A DNA stretch of 39,810 nt. It comes from Acidimicrobiia bacterium. GTDB taxonomy: Bacteria > Actinomycetota > Acidimicrobiia > IMCC26256 > PALSA-610. A program made the translations under genes and the position numbers. The stretch lies in contig JADGOO010000078.1 in NCBI GenBank assembly GCA_017882905.1, positions 1 through 39,810 of the forward strand, given 5' to 3'. Below the pieces are notes generated by a model that was given only the letters and a program-made list of their open reading frames with translations, did not search any database and had not been told where the DNA came from. Below, in pieces: positions 34,048 to 39,776 of this stretch; within the stretch, counting starts at the first letter, position 1; the number at the start of each line of letters is the position of its first letter.

Positions 34048-34175
34048 TCTTGCATGTCAAGTTGTGTCAAGATGTCTGAAGCGGGCGGAAGGTGCCGTAC
34101 GGACGGTCGGGGAAGCTGCCCGAGCGGCGCCTTCCGCCTGCGCCCAGATCCCGGTGCGCCCACGATCGGTGTCGG

Positions 34176-34181
34176 TACGCT
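34176..34181 (+). promoter_or_regulatory. Candidate -10 box before proC
   Basis: TACGCT ends 6 nt before GTG 34188, with no ribosome site between. It predicts a leaderless proC mRNA. Confidence 0.45.
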
Positions 34182-34187
34182 ACGGCC

Positions 34188-34991
34188 GTGACGAACGTGG
34201 CGGTCCTGGGCGGTGGCCGCATGGGCAGCGCCCTCGTGGGCGGCCTGCGCGACGCCGGCTTCGAGCCCGACTCCCTGCGCGTGGCCGAGACTGACCCGGA
34301 GCGCCGGCGCGTGGTCGAGACCGAGCTGGCGGGCATCCGGGTGGTGCCGTCGGCGTCGTGGGCCGTGGCCGATGCCGAGGTCGTGGTGGTGGCGGTGAAG
34401 CCCGCCGACGTCGGCGCCCTGCTCGAGAGCTGCCTCGAAGCGCTCGCGGCCGACGCCCTGGTGCTGTCGATCGCCGCCGGCGTGCCGATCGCCGAGCTCG
34501 AACAGCACGCTCCCCGCCGCCCCGTCGTGCGCGCCATGCCGAACACGCCCGCGGTCGTCCGTCTCGGCGCCTCGGCGATCGCGCCGGGCGCCCACGCCAC
34601 CGAGGTCCACCTGCAGCTCGCCGAGCAGCTGCTCGGCGCAGTGGGCACGGTGGTCCGCGTCCCCGAGTCGTTGCTCGACGCGGTGACCGGTCTGTCGGGC
34701 TCCGGACCCGCCTACGTGTTCCTCGTCGCCGAAGCCCTGATCGAAGCCGGCGTGCTCGCCGGCCTGCCGCGCGACACCGCCGATGCGCTGGTGCGCCAGA
34801 CGCTGCTCGGCGCCGCGACGTTGCTCGCCGACGGTGGCGAACGGCCCGAATCGCTGCGCGCTGCTGTCACCTCGCCCGGCGGCACCACCGCGGCCGGCTT
34901 GGCCGTGCTGGAAGGCCGTGCGGTGCGCAGCGCCTTCCTCGATGCGGTCGGCGCCGCCACGCGGCGTTCGAAGGAGCTCGGCGCAAGCTGA
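34188..34991 (+). CDS. proC: Pyrroline-5-carboxylate reductase
   Basis: A 267-residue enzyme for the last step of proline synthesis (NADPH-dependent reduction of pyrroline-5-carboxylate). The Rossmann motif is VAVLGGGRMGSALVGGLRDA. Then come VVVVAVKPADVGALLE, VRAMPNTPAVVRLGASAI and the family signature around GLSGSGPAYVFLVAEALIEA and AVTSPGGTTAAGLAVLE. Length is typical. GTG 34188 matches family N-termini. In mycobacteria proC is likewise followed by a small HTH gene. Confidence 0.96.
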   Translation: MTNVAVLGGGRMGSALVGGLRDAGFEPDSLRVAETDPERRRVVETELAGIRVVPSASWAVADAEVVVVAVKPADVGALLESCLEALAADALVLSIAAGVPIAELEQHAPRRPVVRAMPNTPAVVRLGASAIAPGAHATEVHLQLAEQLLGAVGTVVRVPESLLDAVTGLSGSGPAYVFLVAEALIEAGVLAGLPRDTADALVRQTLLGAATLLADGGERPESLRAAVTSPGGTTAAGLAVLEGRAVRSAFLDAVGAATRRSKELGAS

Positions 34992-35127: not shown

Positions 35128-35322
35128 GTGGCGAATGGGTTGAGCAAGGCGCGCTTTCTGACGGTGCAAGAGGTGGCGGGCCTCATGCGCGTGTCGTCGA
35201 TGACCGTGTATCGGCTCATCAAGGCCGGCGAGCTGCCGGCCGTGCGCGTCGGCCGGTCGTTCCGCGTCTCCGACGTCGACGTCGACGCCTACCTCGCGTC
35301 GCGCTACACGCAGGCCGGCTGA
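35128..35322 (+). CDS. Small HTH protein, excisionase/BldC-like (Rv0500A type)
   Basis: A 64-residue winged-helix DNA-binding protein of the HTH_17 family. The core FLTVQEVAGLMRVSSMTVYR followed by LIKAGELPAVRVGRSFRVSD closely matches mycobacterial Rv0500A, also found after proC. Although often named excisionase, no integrase or att site is near, so it is a chromosomal regulator. GTG 35128 follows a GGAGGAGTAGGGAG purine run. Confidence 0.9.
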   Translation: MANGLSKARFLTVQEVAGLMRVSSMTVYRLIKAGELPAVRVGRSFRVSDVDVDAYLASRYTQAG

Positions 35323-35475: not shown

Positions 35476-36339
35476 ATGGAATTCGTCTCCTTCTTGTCCG
35501 ACTACGGCACGCGCGACGAGTTCGTCGGCGTGTGCAAAGCGGTCATGCTGGAGCTCGCACCGCAGCTGACCATCGTCGACGTCACCCACGAGGTGGCGCC
35601 GTTCGACGTGCGGGCGGGCGCCCTCACGCTCGTGCGCGCGATCCAGTACCTGCCGAGCGGTGTGGTGCTCGCGATCGTCGATCCGGGTGTGGGCACCGAT
35701 CGGCGGGCGATCGCCGTCGAGGTGGAAAACGGCGTGCTCGTCGGTCCCGACAACGGTCTGCTCGCACCGAGCGTGGCCATGCTCGGCGGAGCGCAGCGCG
35801 CGTTCGCGCTCACGAACGCCGAGTACCAGCTCCAGGCGCCGGGCGGCACGTTCGCCGGACGCGATGTGATGGCGCCGGCCGCCGGGCATCTCGCCGCGGG
35901 GGTGGAGCTGAGCGAGCTCGGCGAGGAGATCGATCCGGCGTTGCTCGTTCCGGGCCTACTGCCGTTGCCGAACGAGCGCGACGACGGCTCGATCGACGGC
36001 GAGGTGCTGTGGATCGATCGCTTCGGCAACGCGCAGCTCAACGTCGATCCCGACATGCTCACGGCGCGCCAGGTGGGGATGGGCGATGGCGTCGAGCTGC
36101 GCATCGGCAGCGAAGGCCGCCGGACGCGATGGGTCCCCACGTATGCCGAGGGCCGACCGTCCGAGCTCGTGTTGGTGACCGACAGCTACGGGCTGCTGTC
36201 GTTGGCGGTCGACCGTCAGTCGGCGGCCGATGTCGCTCAGCTGCGCGTGGGCAGTCACATCACGATCGTGCCCGCGCCGAGCGCGTTCAGCGCGCCGGAA
36301 GGTATCGACACCCCGATCCAGATGGGACGCCGATCATGA
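35476..36339 (+). CDS. SAM hydroxide adenosyltransferase-like protein (DUF62), His of triad missing
   Basis: A 287-residue member of the DUF62/SAM_HAT family, which splits SAM with water to adenosine and methionine and is related to fluorinase and SalL chlorinase. Present are LSDYGTRDEFVGVCKAVMLE, IVDVTHEVAPFDV, AIVDPGVGTDRRAI (triad Asp and Arg), VGPDNGLLAP and IDRFGNAQLNVD. The third triad residue, histidine in the usual TFHGRD, is alanine here (GGTFAGRDVMAP). Hydrolase activity is therefore doubtful or altered. ATG 35476 starts 12 bp after the dispersed repeat. A 28-residue membrane peptide overlaps its stop. Confidence 0.88.
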   Translation: MEFVSFLSDYGTRDEFVGVCKAVMLELAPQLTIVDVTHEVAPFDVRAGALTLVRAIQYLPSGVVLAIVDPGVGTDRRAIAVEVENGVLVGPDNGLLAPSVAMLGGAQRAFALTNAEYQLQAPGGTFAGRDVMAPAAGHLAAGVELSELGEEIDPALLVPGLLPLPNERDDGSIDGEVLWIDRFGNAQLNVDPDMLTARQVGMGDGVELRIGSEGRRTRWVPTYAEGRPSELVLVTDSYGLLSLAVDRQSAADVAQLRVGSHITIVPAPSAFSAPEGIDTPIQMGRRS

Positions 36340-36422
36340 GACGGGGCACGAGCCTGGTGCTCATCCTCTTGCTGTTCGCCATCCTCGCCGCCAACGCCGT
36401 CTTCTTCATCGCCACGCGCTGA
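36336..36422 (+). CDS. 28-residue single-helix membrane peptide
   Basis: Encodes 28 residues: MRRGTSLVLILLLFAILAAN then AVFFIATR. Two N-terminal arginines precede one hydrophobic helix. ATG 36336 overlaps the preceding TGA (ATGA), so it is probably translated by coupling with the SAM-family gene. No family is recognised. The charge pattern puts the N-terminus in the cytoplasm. Its size is below usual gene-calling limits. Confidence 0.6.
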   Translation: MRRGTSLVLILLLFAILAANAVFFIATR

Positions 36423-37998: not shown

Positions 37999-38523
37999 AT
38001 GACGCGTTCCGTCGTCGCCATCGACATCCCGAACCTGCTCCCGAAGTGGCACTTCTTCCAGCCCGCGGGCCGGATGATCTGGGCGACGCTGCTGTTCGTG
38101 ATCGCCATCGGCGGGATCATGTTCATGATCAGCAAGCCGAAGCCGGCCGAACCGCCCACGTGGGCGCAGTGCATGCTCGGCGCGGTCGCCACATTCGCGC
38201 TGATGCTGTTGGGCTACGGCACGATCCCGCACGAGTGGCTCAACTTCTCGAACTCGTACCTGAAGTGGAACGCGGCGAAGTTCATCGTGCACGGCGGCCA
38301 GAAGATCGGCCCCATCCACTGGCTCAACTTCTCGATCAACAAGCAAGTGCTCAGCGACCTCGGTGCCGTGGTCATCTACGTCGTCATGCTGACGCTCAAC
38401 GTCATCATCATCAGCAAGTGGCAGAAGCGACCCACCGCTACCGAAGCGCCCGCTGCCGGCGACGCCGAGGAGCGAGTCGTCGGCCAGTCGGCCTACGGTC
38501 GTCCCGTCACGGTCAAGGGCTGA
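37999..38523 (+). CDS. Three-helix membrane protein of a quinol oxidase operon
   Basis: A 174-residue protein with an amphipathic start (IPNLLPKWHFFQPAGR) and three hydrophobic helices (MIWATLLFVIAIGGIMFMI, CMLGAVATFALMLLGYG, LGAVVIYVVMLTLNVIIISK). Between helices 2 and 3 is a His/Trp-rich stretch (IPHEWLNFSNSYLKWN, PIHWLNFSINKQ). No named family is recognised. It precedes a ferredoxin by 11 bp and cytochrome b6, so it is probably an accessory or anchoring subunit of that complex. ATG 37999 is the only good start. Confidence 0.75.
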   Translation: MTRSVVAIDIPNLLPKWHFFQPAGRMIWATLLFVIAIGGIMFMISKPKPAEPPTWAQCMLGAVATFALMLLGYGTIPHEWLNFSNSYLKWNAAKFIVHGGQKIGPIHWLNFSINKQVLSDLGAVVIYVVMLTLNVIIISKWQKRPTATEAPAAGDAEERVVGQSAYGRPVTVKG

Positions 38524-38534
38524 GGGGGCACACA

Positions 38535-38948
38535 GTGGCGCGTACGGATGCGAACCCGCCGATGCCCGAGTTCTCCGACTCGTACACCGTGCAAGAAGTC
38601 GATCCGACCTGGCTCACGCAAGCGGTCAAGCCGAAGCAGTTCCTGCACATCGATCAGGCGGAGTGCATCCTTTGCGAAGGCTGCGTCGACATCTGCCCGT
38701 GGAAGTGCATCCACATGTTGTCGGTCGATGCGATCGACGAAGCGGTCGGCACCGAGAAGCCCGGCGACGATCCGCGTGACCACGTGTTCTTCGTCGTCGA
38801 CGAAGACGTGTGCACGCGTTGTGCGCTGTGCGTCGATCGCTGCCCGACCGGAGTCATCATCCTCGGCAAGGTCACAGCAGACTGGGCCGAGGGCGACCCG
38901 AACGTCCGCACCAACCGTCACGGCTACGCCTACGGCGTGCGGTTCTAG
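38535..38948 (+). CDS. Ferredoxin with two [4Fe-4S] clusters
   Basis: A 137-residue iron-sulfur protein. The cluster ligands are Cys44, 47, 50 and 54 (CILCEGCVDICP) and Cys93, 96, 99 and 103 (CTRCALCVDRCP). There are 34 residues between the Cys-Pro of motif one and the first Cys of motif two, longer than in simple bacterial ferredoxins. GTG 38535 follows GAGGGGG. It lies between a membrane protein and cytochrome b6 where a Rieske gene would be expected, so it probably carries electrons for that complex. Confidence 0.9.
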   Translation: MARTDANPPMPEFSDSYTVQEVDPTWLTQAVKPKQFLHIDQAECILCEGCVDICPWKCIHMLSVDAIDEAVGTEKPGDDPRDHVFFVVDEDVCTRCALCVDRCPTGVIILGKVTADWAEGDPNVRTNRHGYAYGVRF

Positions 38949-38969
38949 CGAGCACGGAAGGTTCCTTCG

Positions 38970-39776
38970 TTGGCGAACGGCAACGGCAGCTCGAACGGCA
39001 ACGGCAGCCATGGTGGCGGCCTGAAGCTCAAAGACAAGGGCAGCGAGGTCTGGGGCAACGTCCAGGGCTCGCAGGCTTGGAACGCGATCTTCCGACCCGG
39101 GTCGGTGTTCCGCAAGGGCTACAGCGACAGCCCGCGCAACCGTTCCTACGTGATCATGAACAACGTGCTGTACCACCTTCACCCGGTGAAGGTGAAGCGG
39201 CACGCGGTGAAGGTCAGCTACACGCTGTGTCTCGGCGGGCTGAGCTTCTTCTTGTTCATCTTGCTCACCGTCACCGGCATCTTCTTGATGTTCTTCTACC
39301 GACCGACCGCCACCGAAGCGTGGTCCACGGTGCAGAACCTCGAAACGGCGGTGGCGTTCGGTTCCCTTGTGCGCAACATGCATCGATGGGCCGCGCACCT
39401 CATGGTGCTGTCGGTGTTCTTGCACATGAGCCGCGTCTTCTACCACGGTGCCTACAAGTCGCCGCGTGAGTTCAACTGGGTGATCGGCGTGATCCTGCTC
39501 ACGCTCACGCTGCTGCTCTCGTTCACCGGCTACCTGCTGCCGTGGGACCAGCTGGCGCTCTGGGCCGTCACCGTCGGCACGAACATGATGGGCTACACGC
39601 CCGTGTTCGGTGGCCAGATCCGGTACGCGCTGCTCGGATCGAAGGAGATCAGCGGCGACACCCTGCTGCGGTGGTACACCCTGCACGTCCTGCTGCTGCC
39701 CTTCGTGATCGTCATCTTCATGGCAGTCCACTTCTGGCGAGTCCGCAAGGACGGCGGCCTCTCCGGGCCGTTGTAA
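38970..39776 (+). CDS. Cytochrome b6-type subunit of a menaquinol:cytochrome complex
   Basis: A 268-residue diheme cytochrome b, four helices, ending RKDGGLSGPL like PetB/b6 rather than full-length QcrB. Haem ligands are the histidine pairs in NMHRWAAHLMVLSVFLHM (14 apart) and LHVLLLPFVIVIFMAVHF (15 apart). An unusual Asn/Gly/Ser-rich N-terminus (NGNGSSNGNGSHGGG) precedes the fold. The start is TTG 38970 with GGAAGG 8 nt upstream. Another gene follows after 16 bp, probably the second half of cytochrome b (subunit IV type). Confidence 0.9.
   Translation: MANGNGSSNGNGSHGGGLKLKDKGSEVWGNVQGSQAWNAIFRPGSVFRKGYSDSPRNRSYVIMNNVLYHLHPVKVKRHAVKVSYTLCLGGLSFFLFILLTVTGIFLMFFYRPTATEAWSTVQNLETAVAFGSLVRNMHRWAAHLMVLSVFLHMSRVFYHGAYKSPREFNWVIGVILLTLTLLLSFTGYLLPWDQLALWAVTVGTNMMGYTPVFGGQIRYALLGSKEISGDTLLRWYTLHVLLLPFVIVIFMAVHFWRVRKDGGLSGPL

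Follow-up and report, generated by a model that had tools for sequence, protein, structure and literature searches.

A DUF62 protein without the triad histidine and its relatives across nearly the whole class Acidimicrobiia

The DUF62, or SAM hydroxide adenosyltransferase, family is described in the accessible part of a 2023 review as having a strictly conserved His-Arg-Asp triad that activates water (PMC10491745). The window, which is the whole stretch of 39,810 nucleotides analysed here from an Acidimicrobiia bacterium of the order IMCC26256, encodes a member of this family in which the triad histidine is an alanine. This raises the question of what such a protein does. The sequence-only reading had offered a weak hydrolase, a SAM sensor or an enzyme using another nucleophile. 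Among these, the evidence leans towards a hydrolase-type enzyme that may have no need of the histidine.

The DUF62 gene and its active site

The gene and the positions of interest are as follows.
35476..36339, forward strand: DUF62 / SAM hydroxide adenosyltransferase-family gene without the triad histidine, 287 aa (Pfam, AlphaFold2, structure superposition)
35680..35682, forward strand: codon of Asp69 (D68 in PH0463), kept; Asp in 133 of 134 alignment rows
35701..35703, forward strand: codon of Arg76 (R75 in PH0463), kept; Arg in 133 of 134 alignment rows
35746..35757, forward strand: near-invariant motif P91-D92-N93-G94, for which the tree of 134 rows gives 0, 0, 1 and 0 changes
35854..35856, forward strand: gcc codon of Ala127 (H127 in PH0463), the lost triad histidine by alignment, with 26 changes on the tree

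The open reading frame begins with ATG and runs through 287 codons to its stop without internal stops. Both Pfam domains of the family were detected well above their curated cut-offs, SAM_HAT_N (PF01887) with an E-value of 6e-47 and 159.5 bits against 26.3, and SAM_HAT_C (PF20257) with an E-value of 1.3e-17 and 64.3 bits against 25.5. A monomer AlphaFold2 model computed from a 53-row alignment has the two-domain SAM_HAT fold (pLDDT 93.2, pTM 0.84). It superposes on the T. maritima structure 2zbu with Z 32.8 and 1.7 A over 260 residues, and on SalL (6rz2, Z 32.2), PH0463 (1wu8, Z 29.7) and the fluorinase FlA (1rqp, Z 29.2). As judged from this model, the DUF62 fold is clear, and the function within the superfamily hinges on the active site. 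The NCBIfam equivalog models for (R)-SAM hydrolases scored below their cut-offs (NF058624, 193 against 350 bits; NF053629, 122.1 against 470). A genome-wide search of the source genome returned one DUF62 match and no second copy.

The Asp-Arg-His triad was defined in Pyrococcus PH0463 as D68-R75-H127, according to the part of PMC4859513 that was available. This numbering was transferred through a PDB alignment of PH0463 with the His-type locus L071, an alignment of 2zbu with the window protein, and the family alignment. The window protein has the Asp and the Arg of the hydrolase subgroup as Asp69 and Arg76, and Ala127 in place of the His, so that its motif is TFAGRD. These alignments bear out the initial observation that Asp and Arg are kept while the TFHGRD of the family has lost its His. 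Two other histidines were considered as replacements and rejected: His38 does not vary, whether or not the triad His is present, and His138 is Tyr, Phe or Arg in many orthologues.

P. horikoshii PH0463 and T. maritima 2zbu share with the window protein the full-length fold, the Asp and Arg of the triad, and the PDNG, GRD and D-x-FGN motifs, at an identity over aligned residues of 30 % and 33 %, respectively; they differ in having the triad His where the window protein has Ala. The Salinispora proteins StDUF62 and SaDUF62 belong to the same Pfam family and phylum, and the formation of adenosine and methionine described for them in the accessible text of PMC12120602 and PMC10491745 is the reaction to be expected. 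This likeness is one of family and expected reaction. The Actinomycetes relative Nonomuraea has TFHGRD.

The sequence-only reading had also pointed to the fluorinase and to the chlorinase SalL as relatives that lack the full triad and use halides. For SalL, the lack of the triad is correct, as all three positions differ, with Tyr, Thr and Tyr at the positions of Asp69, Arg76 and Ala127. The hint at a similar chemistry finds no support, because SalL replaces all three residues while the window protein keeps Asp and Arg; the latter is hydrolase-like at two triad positions and resembles neither a hydrolase nor SalL at the third. A SAM-dependent halogenase of the chlorinase or fluorinase type would fit the fold shared with SalL (Z 32.2) and FlA (Z 29.2) and the absence of the His from SalL as well. 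Such a function is nevertheless very improbable, since the Tyr and Thr that SalL has in place of the hydrolase Asp and Arg are not present in the window protein and the fluorinase model TIGR04507 gave 94.5 bits against a cut-off of 400.

Spread and tempo of the histidine loss

The distribution of residue 127 was assessed in 159 loci yielding 156 proteins, of which 134 rows were retained after dropping L120, the partial L156 and rows more than 97 % identical (L numbers denote loci, G numbers genomes and f numbers families). The order IMCC26256 is represented by 34 of its 55 genomes with a match, namely the best 30 and four more. The class and phylum loci are chosen samples across families, with 37 loci from the class beyond the order and 46 from the rest of the phylum; one of the latter, L120, is a fragment without the motif, leaving 45 phylum rows.

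Over all 134 non-redundant rows, column 127 holds 63 Ala, 39 His, 17 Asp and 15 other residues. None of the 34 order rows has His (31 Ala, and one each of Ser, Gly and Leu), and it is found in 3 of the 37 rows from the rest of the class (17 Ala, 14 Asp, 2 Glu, 1 Pro). In the rest of the phylum, His is present in 35 of 45 rows, the others being Asp (3), Gln (3), Glu (2), Asn (1) and Arg (1). The 18 rows from named contigs comprise 15 Ala and one each of Ser, Gln and His. Different states also occur inside single class families, with Ala, Asp and Pro in f20, His and Ala in f24, and Asp and Ala in f49. In rows from the rest of the phylum such as L086, L089, L099, L102, L107, L115 and L118, Gln, Glu, Asn or Arg stands in place of the His, and Asp69 and Arg76 are kept.

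The earlier reading would have fallen if the alanine were unique to this sequence. It is not, as the His is missing from all 34 order loci and from 34 of the 37 loci elsewhere in the class. Neither a sequencing error nor a private mutation explains the Ala, because 28 of the best 30 matches, the window's own included, carry Ala (the other two Ser and Gly). The first observation is thus correct and understated, since nearly a whole class shares this naturally occurring variant of a known enzyme family. Among the papers listed by searches of open-licence PMC texts, no description of a His-less DUF62 group was found.

Of 61 relatives searched genome-wide, 58 gave a DUF62 match. Among the class genomes, 208 of 246 gave one and 38 did not, and nearly all rows listed have a single copy. 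The closest named complete genome is that of Actinobacteria bacterium IMCC26256 (CP011489.1, L138). Three metagenome-assembled contigs titled Bifidobacterium breve (CAMBEL010000004.1, L128; CAMDSG010000018.1, L139; CAMDCC010000006.1, L142) look misnamed, since their DUF62 genes and synteny are of the Acidimicrobiia IMCC26256 type, and L139 and IMCC26256 have nearly the same protein. The view beyond Actinomycetota consists of five matches from a plasmid collection and the solved structures. FHGRD is present in the four solved hydrolase-type sequences (2zbu, PH0463, Thermus 2cw5 and MJ1651 2f4n) and in all six plasmid-collection matches that were read out of ten found (Nonomuraea, Aeromonas, Enterococcus, E. 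coli, Microvirga and Bradyrhizobium). None of the 43 matches from a pattern scan of viral contigs is a relative.

The tempo of change was estimated on a quick 134-row tree built without column 127, with counts that do not distinguish gain from loss. Column 127 changed at least 26 times, or 11 times if only His versus not-His is counted; the median of the 269 columns is 30 changes, and 114 columns have fewer than 26. Position 127 thus changes about as often as an average column, while its partners Asp69 and Arg76 hardly change, with one change each. Phe126 changed twice, and Asp9, His38, Pro91, Asp92, Gly94, Arg129, Asp130, Asp181 and Asp236 not at all; Asp9, Arg129, Asp130 and Asp181 are kept in all 134 rows. 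Several columns listed as possibly functional are looser (Asn185 with 4, Gly128 with 6, Ser237 with 9, Gln187 with 15 and Tyr238 with 30 changes). The replacements at 127 in the family alignment include A, G, S, D, E, Q, N, P, L and R. The common states lie one base apart in the genetic code (CAY for His, GAY for Asp, GCN for Ala), which makes such a change easy.

The majority residues of His-type and Ala-type proteins are the same at most strongly conserved columns. Besides 127, eleven columns differ between the two types (10, 57, 82, 97, 100, 101, 123, 159, 160, 179 and 187), among them Trp179 and Gln187. Descent may explain these differences, since the groups are mostly different classes; a joint change of the pocket is also possible. 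A search for a compensating column that tracks the His state over 7 independent pairs, and hence with low power, gave no convincing candidate (best 3.7 against an average of 0.4).

Nine pairs of His-less genes have a dN much lower than their dS, with values such as 0.029 and 0.608 for L018/L021, 0.055 and 0.42 for L014/L020, 0.033 and 0.129 for L027/L030, and 0.224 and 0.684 for L001/L002. The DUF62 gene without the His is under purifying selection. This, together with motif columns conserved in nearly all rows, argues against a pseudo-enzyme on its way to loss. Such decay would accord with the 38 of 246 class genomes that have no DUF62 match and with three class members that changed other motif residues too, although overall it appears quite improbable. 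These three, L033 with Gln at 76, L034 with an altered Asp69 region, and L111 with a deletion after Asp69 and Pro at 127, are candidates for true loss of function on the basis of their sequences.

Neighbouring genes and a 28-residue membrane ORF

The surroundings of the gene contain the following features.
34092..34991, forward strand: proC (pyrroline-5-carboxylate reductase), a conserved upstream neighbour (Pfam P5CR_dimer, 9.5e-39; synteny)
35128..35322, forward strand: 64-aa HTH_17 gene just upstream of DUF62 (Pfam HTH_17, 1.3e-15)
36336..36422, forward strand: 28-aa single-helix membrane ORF without a Pfam match, overlapping the DUF62 stop codon (ATGA), a possible partner
37999..39776, forward strand: row of three ORFs, for a 174-aa membrane protein (no Pfam match), a 4Fe-4S ferredoxin-like protein and a cytochrome b N-terminal protein

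The HTH_17 gene, which we take to be BldC-like, lies upstream of DUF62 in most named loci. The row further downstream resembles a split cytochrome b complex that encloses a ferredoxin gene, and the same row follows DUF62 in L122, L123 and L150.

The distribution of the 28-aa ORF was determined with a profile built from 20 such peptides and accepting E-values up to 0.05. It matched in 58 of 61 relatives, two of the matches being weak (G033, 0.036; G058, 0.007). In 57 of these 58, with places compared by eye, the ORF lies less than about 1.1 kb from DUF62, the remaining genome (G029) having its DUF62 gene at a contig end. A further match in another place occurs in three genomes and is strong in G019 and weak in G023 and G036. 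The three relatives without the ORF are the three without DUF62 (G020, G035 and G040), and in these one missing contig could be behind both absences.

In 20 longer regions around class DUF62 loci, the ORF was present in 17, on the same strand in 7 and convergent in 10. The profile was further applied to 50 chosen class genomes. All 12 with good DUF62 matches have the ORF (on separate contigs in G187), as do 4 of the 15 with weaker matches; among the 21 without a DUF62 match it was found strongly in G126 and at the threshold in G134, and neither of two 1.1-Mb genomes has it. In a sample of 60 phylum genomes, the ORF is present in each of the 6 that belong to the class, and another 9 gave weak matches (best 3.6e-6). 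The ratio pN/pS of the ORF is 0.41 over 32 disjoint pairs. The strong match in G126 (C8:207794-207877, in L186) lies in a genome without a DUF62 match; the ORFs nearby are presumably acyl-CoA-ligase-like and Rex-like, as named by reading of the ORFs, and no clear partner gene was found among those listed around this locus.

A first scan, limited to 400 bp downstream on the same strand, found the ORF in none of the 39 His rows and in 58 of the remaining 95, with less than 150 bp of sequence available in 3 and 22 of them, respectively. A tie of the ORF to the loss of the His was ruled out by the longer regions, in which it adjoins the His-type class members G060 and G170 and is absent beside G065. 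The ORF therefore goes with the class and not with the His loss. It is a widespread conserved neighbour of DUF62 in Acidimicrobiia and a possible, putative partner.

Candidate functions of the His-less protein

The protein is probably, by a modest balance of the evidence, a single-copy SAM or (R,S)-SAM hydrolase-type enzyme that works on Asp69 and Arg76 and for which the His is dispensable. According to this proposal, SAM, possibly its (R,S) epimer as in StDUF62, would still be bound, and water would attack C5', with adenosine and methionine as the products. Asp69 and Arg76 would hold and polarise this water, the third triad residue, a His elsewhere, would be dispensable and replaced by Ala, and the protein would be a homotrimer with its active site at the interface, as in its relatives. 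The simplest account would be that Asp69 and Arg76 are enough and that the His merely tunes the rate. Position 127 can be Ala, Asp, Glu, Gln, Asn, Ser, Gly or His in proteins in which Asp69, Arg76 and the majority of motif columns do not vary, and this is the basis of the lean towards a hydrolase-type enzyme. As the replacements include residues unable to share one chemistry, a relaxed site fits better than one new specificity.

Several points speak against a dispensable His. The lost residue belongs to the triad to which the accessible part of the 2023 review ascribes the activation of water (PMC10491745), and all four solved hydrolase-type sequences and the six plasmid-collection matches keep FHGRD. 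Among the rows from beyond Acidimicrobiia, 35 of 45 retain the His, so its loss is not neutral everywhere. Some other functional columns (N185, G128, S237, Q187 and Y238) are loose too, eleven further columns, Trp179 and Gln187 among them, separate His-type from Ala-type proteins, and the 193 bits obtained with the (R)-SAM hydrolase model fall short of its cut-off of 350.

The main rival is a SAM- or adenosine-binding protein without hydrolase turnover, in which the pocket would serve for binding, sensing or buffering, perhaps with the 28-aa membrane partner. A residue to which water activation is ascribed is gone in 34 of 34 order loci while most motif columns are fixed, and 57 of the 58 relatives with the membrane microprotein gene carry it near DUF62. 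Doubts about SAM hydrolysis as the real function of DUF62 are also found in the accessible text of two papers. StDUF62 prefers (R,S)-SAM and is almost inactive at 300 mM NaCl or KCl, and the authors of that work question hydrolysis as its physiological function (PMC12120602); annotators of haloarchaea consider the reaction wasteful for a gene that is so widely kept and strongly linked to nadM (PMC8305020). However, Asp69 and Arg76 are each present in 133 of 134 rows, and a pure binder might let both drift. The microprotein also adjoins two of the three His-type class members and is not tied to the His loss. A protein of this kind is a real possibility, although clearly a minority one. A more far-reaching variant is that the DUF62 protein of Acidimicrobiia would be no SAM hydrolase at all. 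The variants at 127 would retain a tight pocket for SAM or a related nucleoside that serves a different purpose, the 28-aa protein, whose gene adjoins DUF62 in most of the class, would provide a tie to the membrane, and the in vitro hydrolysis by relatives would be a side activity. We regard this variant as doubtful.

Alternatively, the protein could be an adenosyltransferase with another nucleophile, in which the small Ala makes room next to C5' for a reactant bulkier than water. This would agree with Ala, Gly or Ser at 127 in 33 of 34 order loci and with the adjacent Gly128, which aligns with Gly131 of the SalL halide site (role as given in the available part of PMC4859513). It is less easily reconciled with the Asp or Glu at 127 in 16 of the 37 other class rows, which should repel an anion, and with neighbours that are unlike a biosynthetic cluster (proC, the HTH gene, a glycosyltransferase and an FAD/GGR-like protein). 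A compensating column was not detected either (7 independent pairs, low power). Taken together, a new nucleophile is unlikely.

The hydrolase-type reading, which remains the preferred one, has consequences for the use of this family. Nearly a whole class keeps DUF62 under purifying selection without the His, in contrast to a triad that is called strictly conserved in the accessible part of the review (PMC10491745). Should the His be as essential as textbooks have it, nearly a class would keep a non-hydrolysing DUF62 protein that is selected for something else. Hydrolase or halogenase names given from the domain alone are unsafe, and the His-less DUF62 protein of the window is not a halogenase lead. 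Its value lies in the natural mutants that it and its relatives provide, with Ala, Asp, Glu, Gln or Asn at 127 and, in nearly every case, an intact Asp and Arg. With this ready set, the part played by the His and the purpose of DUF62 can be tested directly, by asking if the enzyme can do without the His and if hydrolysis is the activity that selection maintains.
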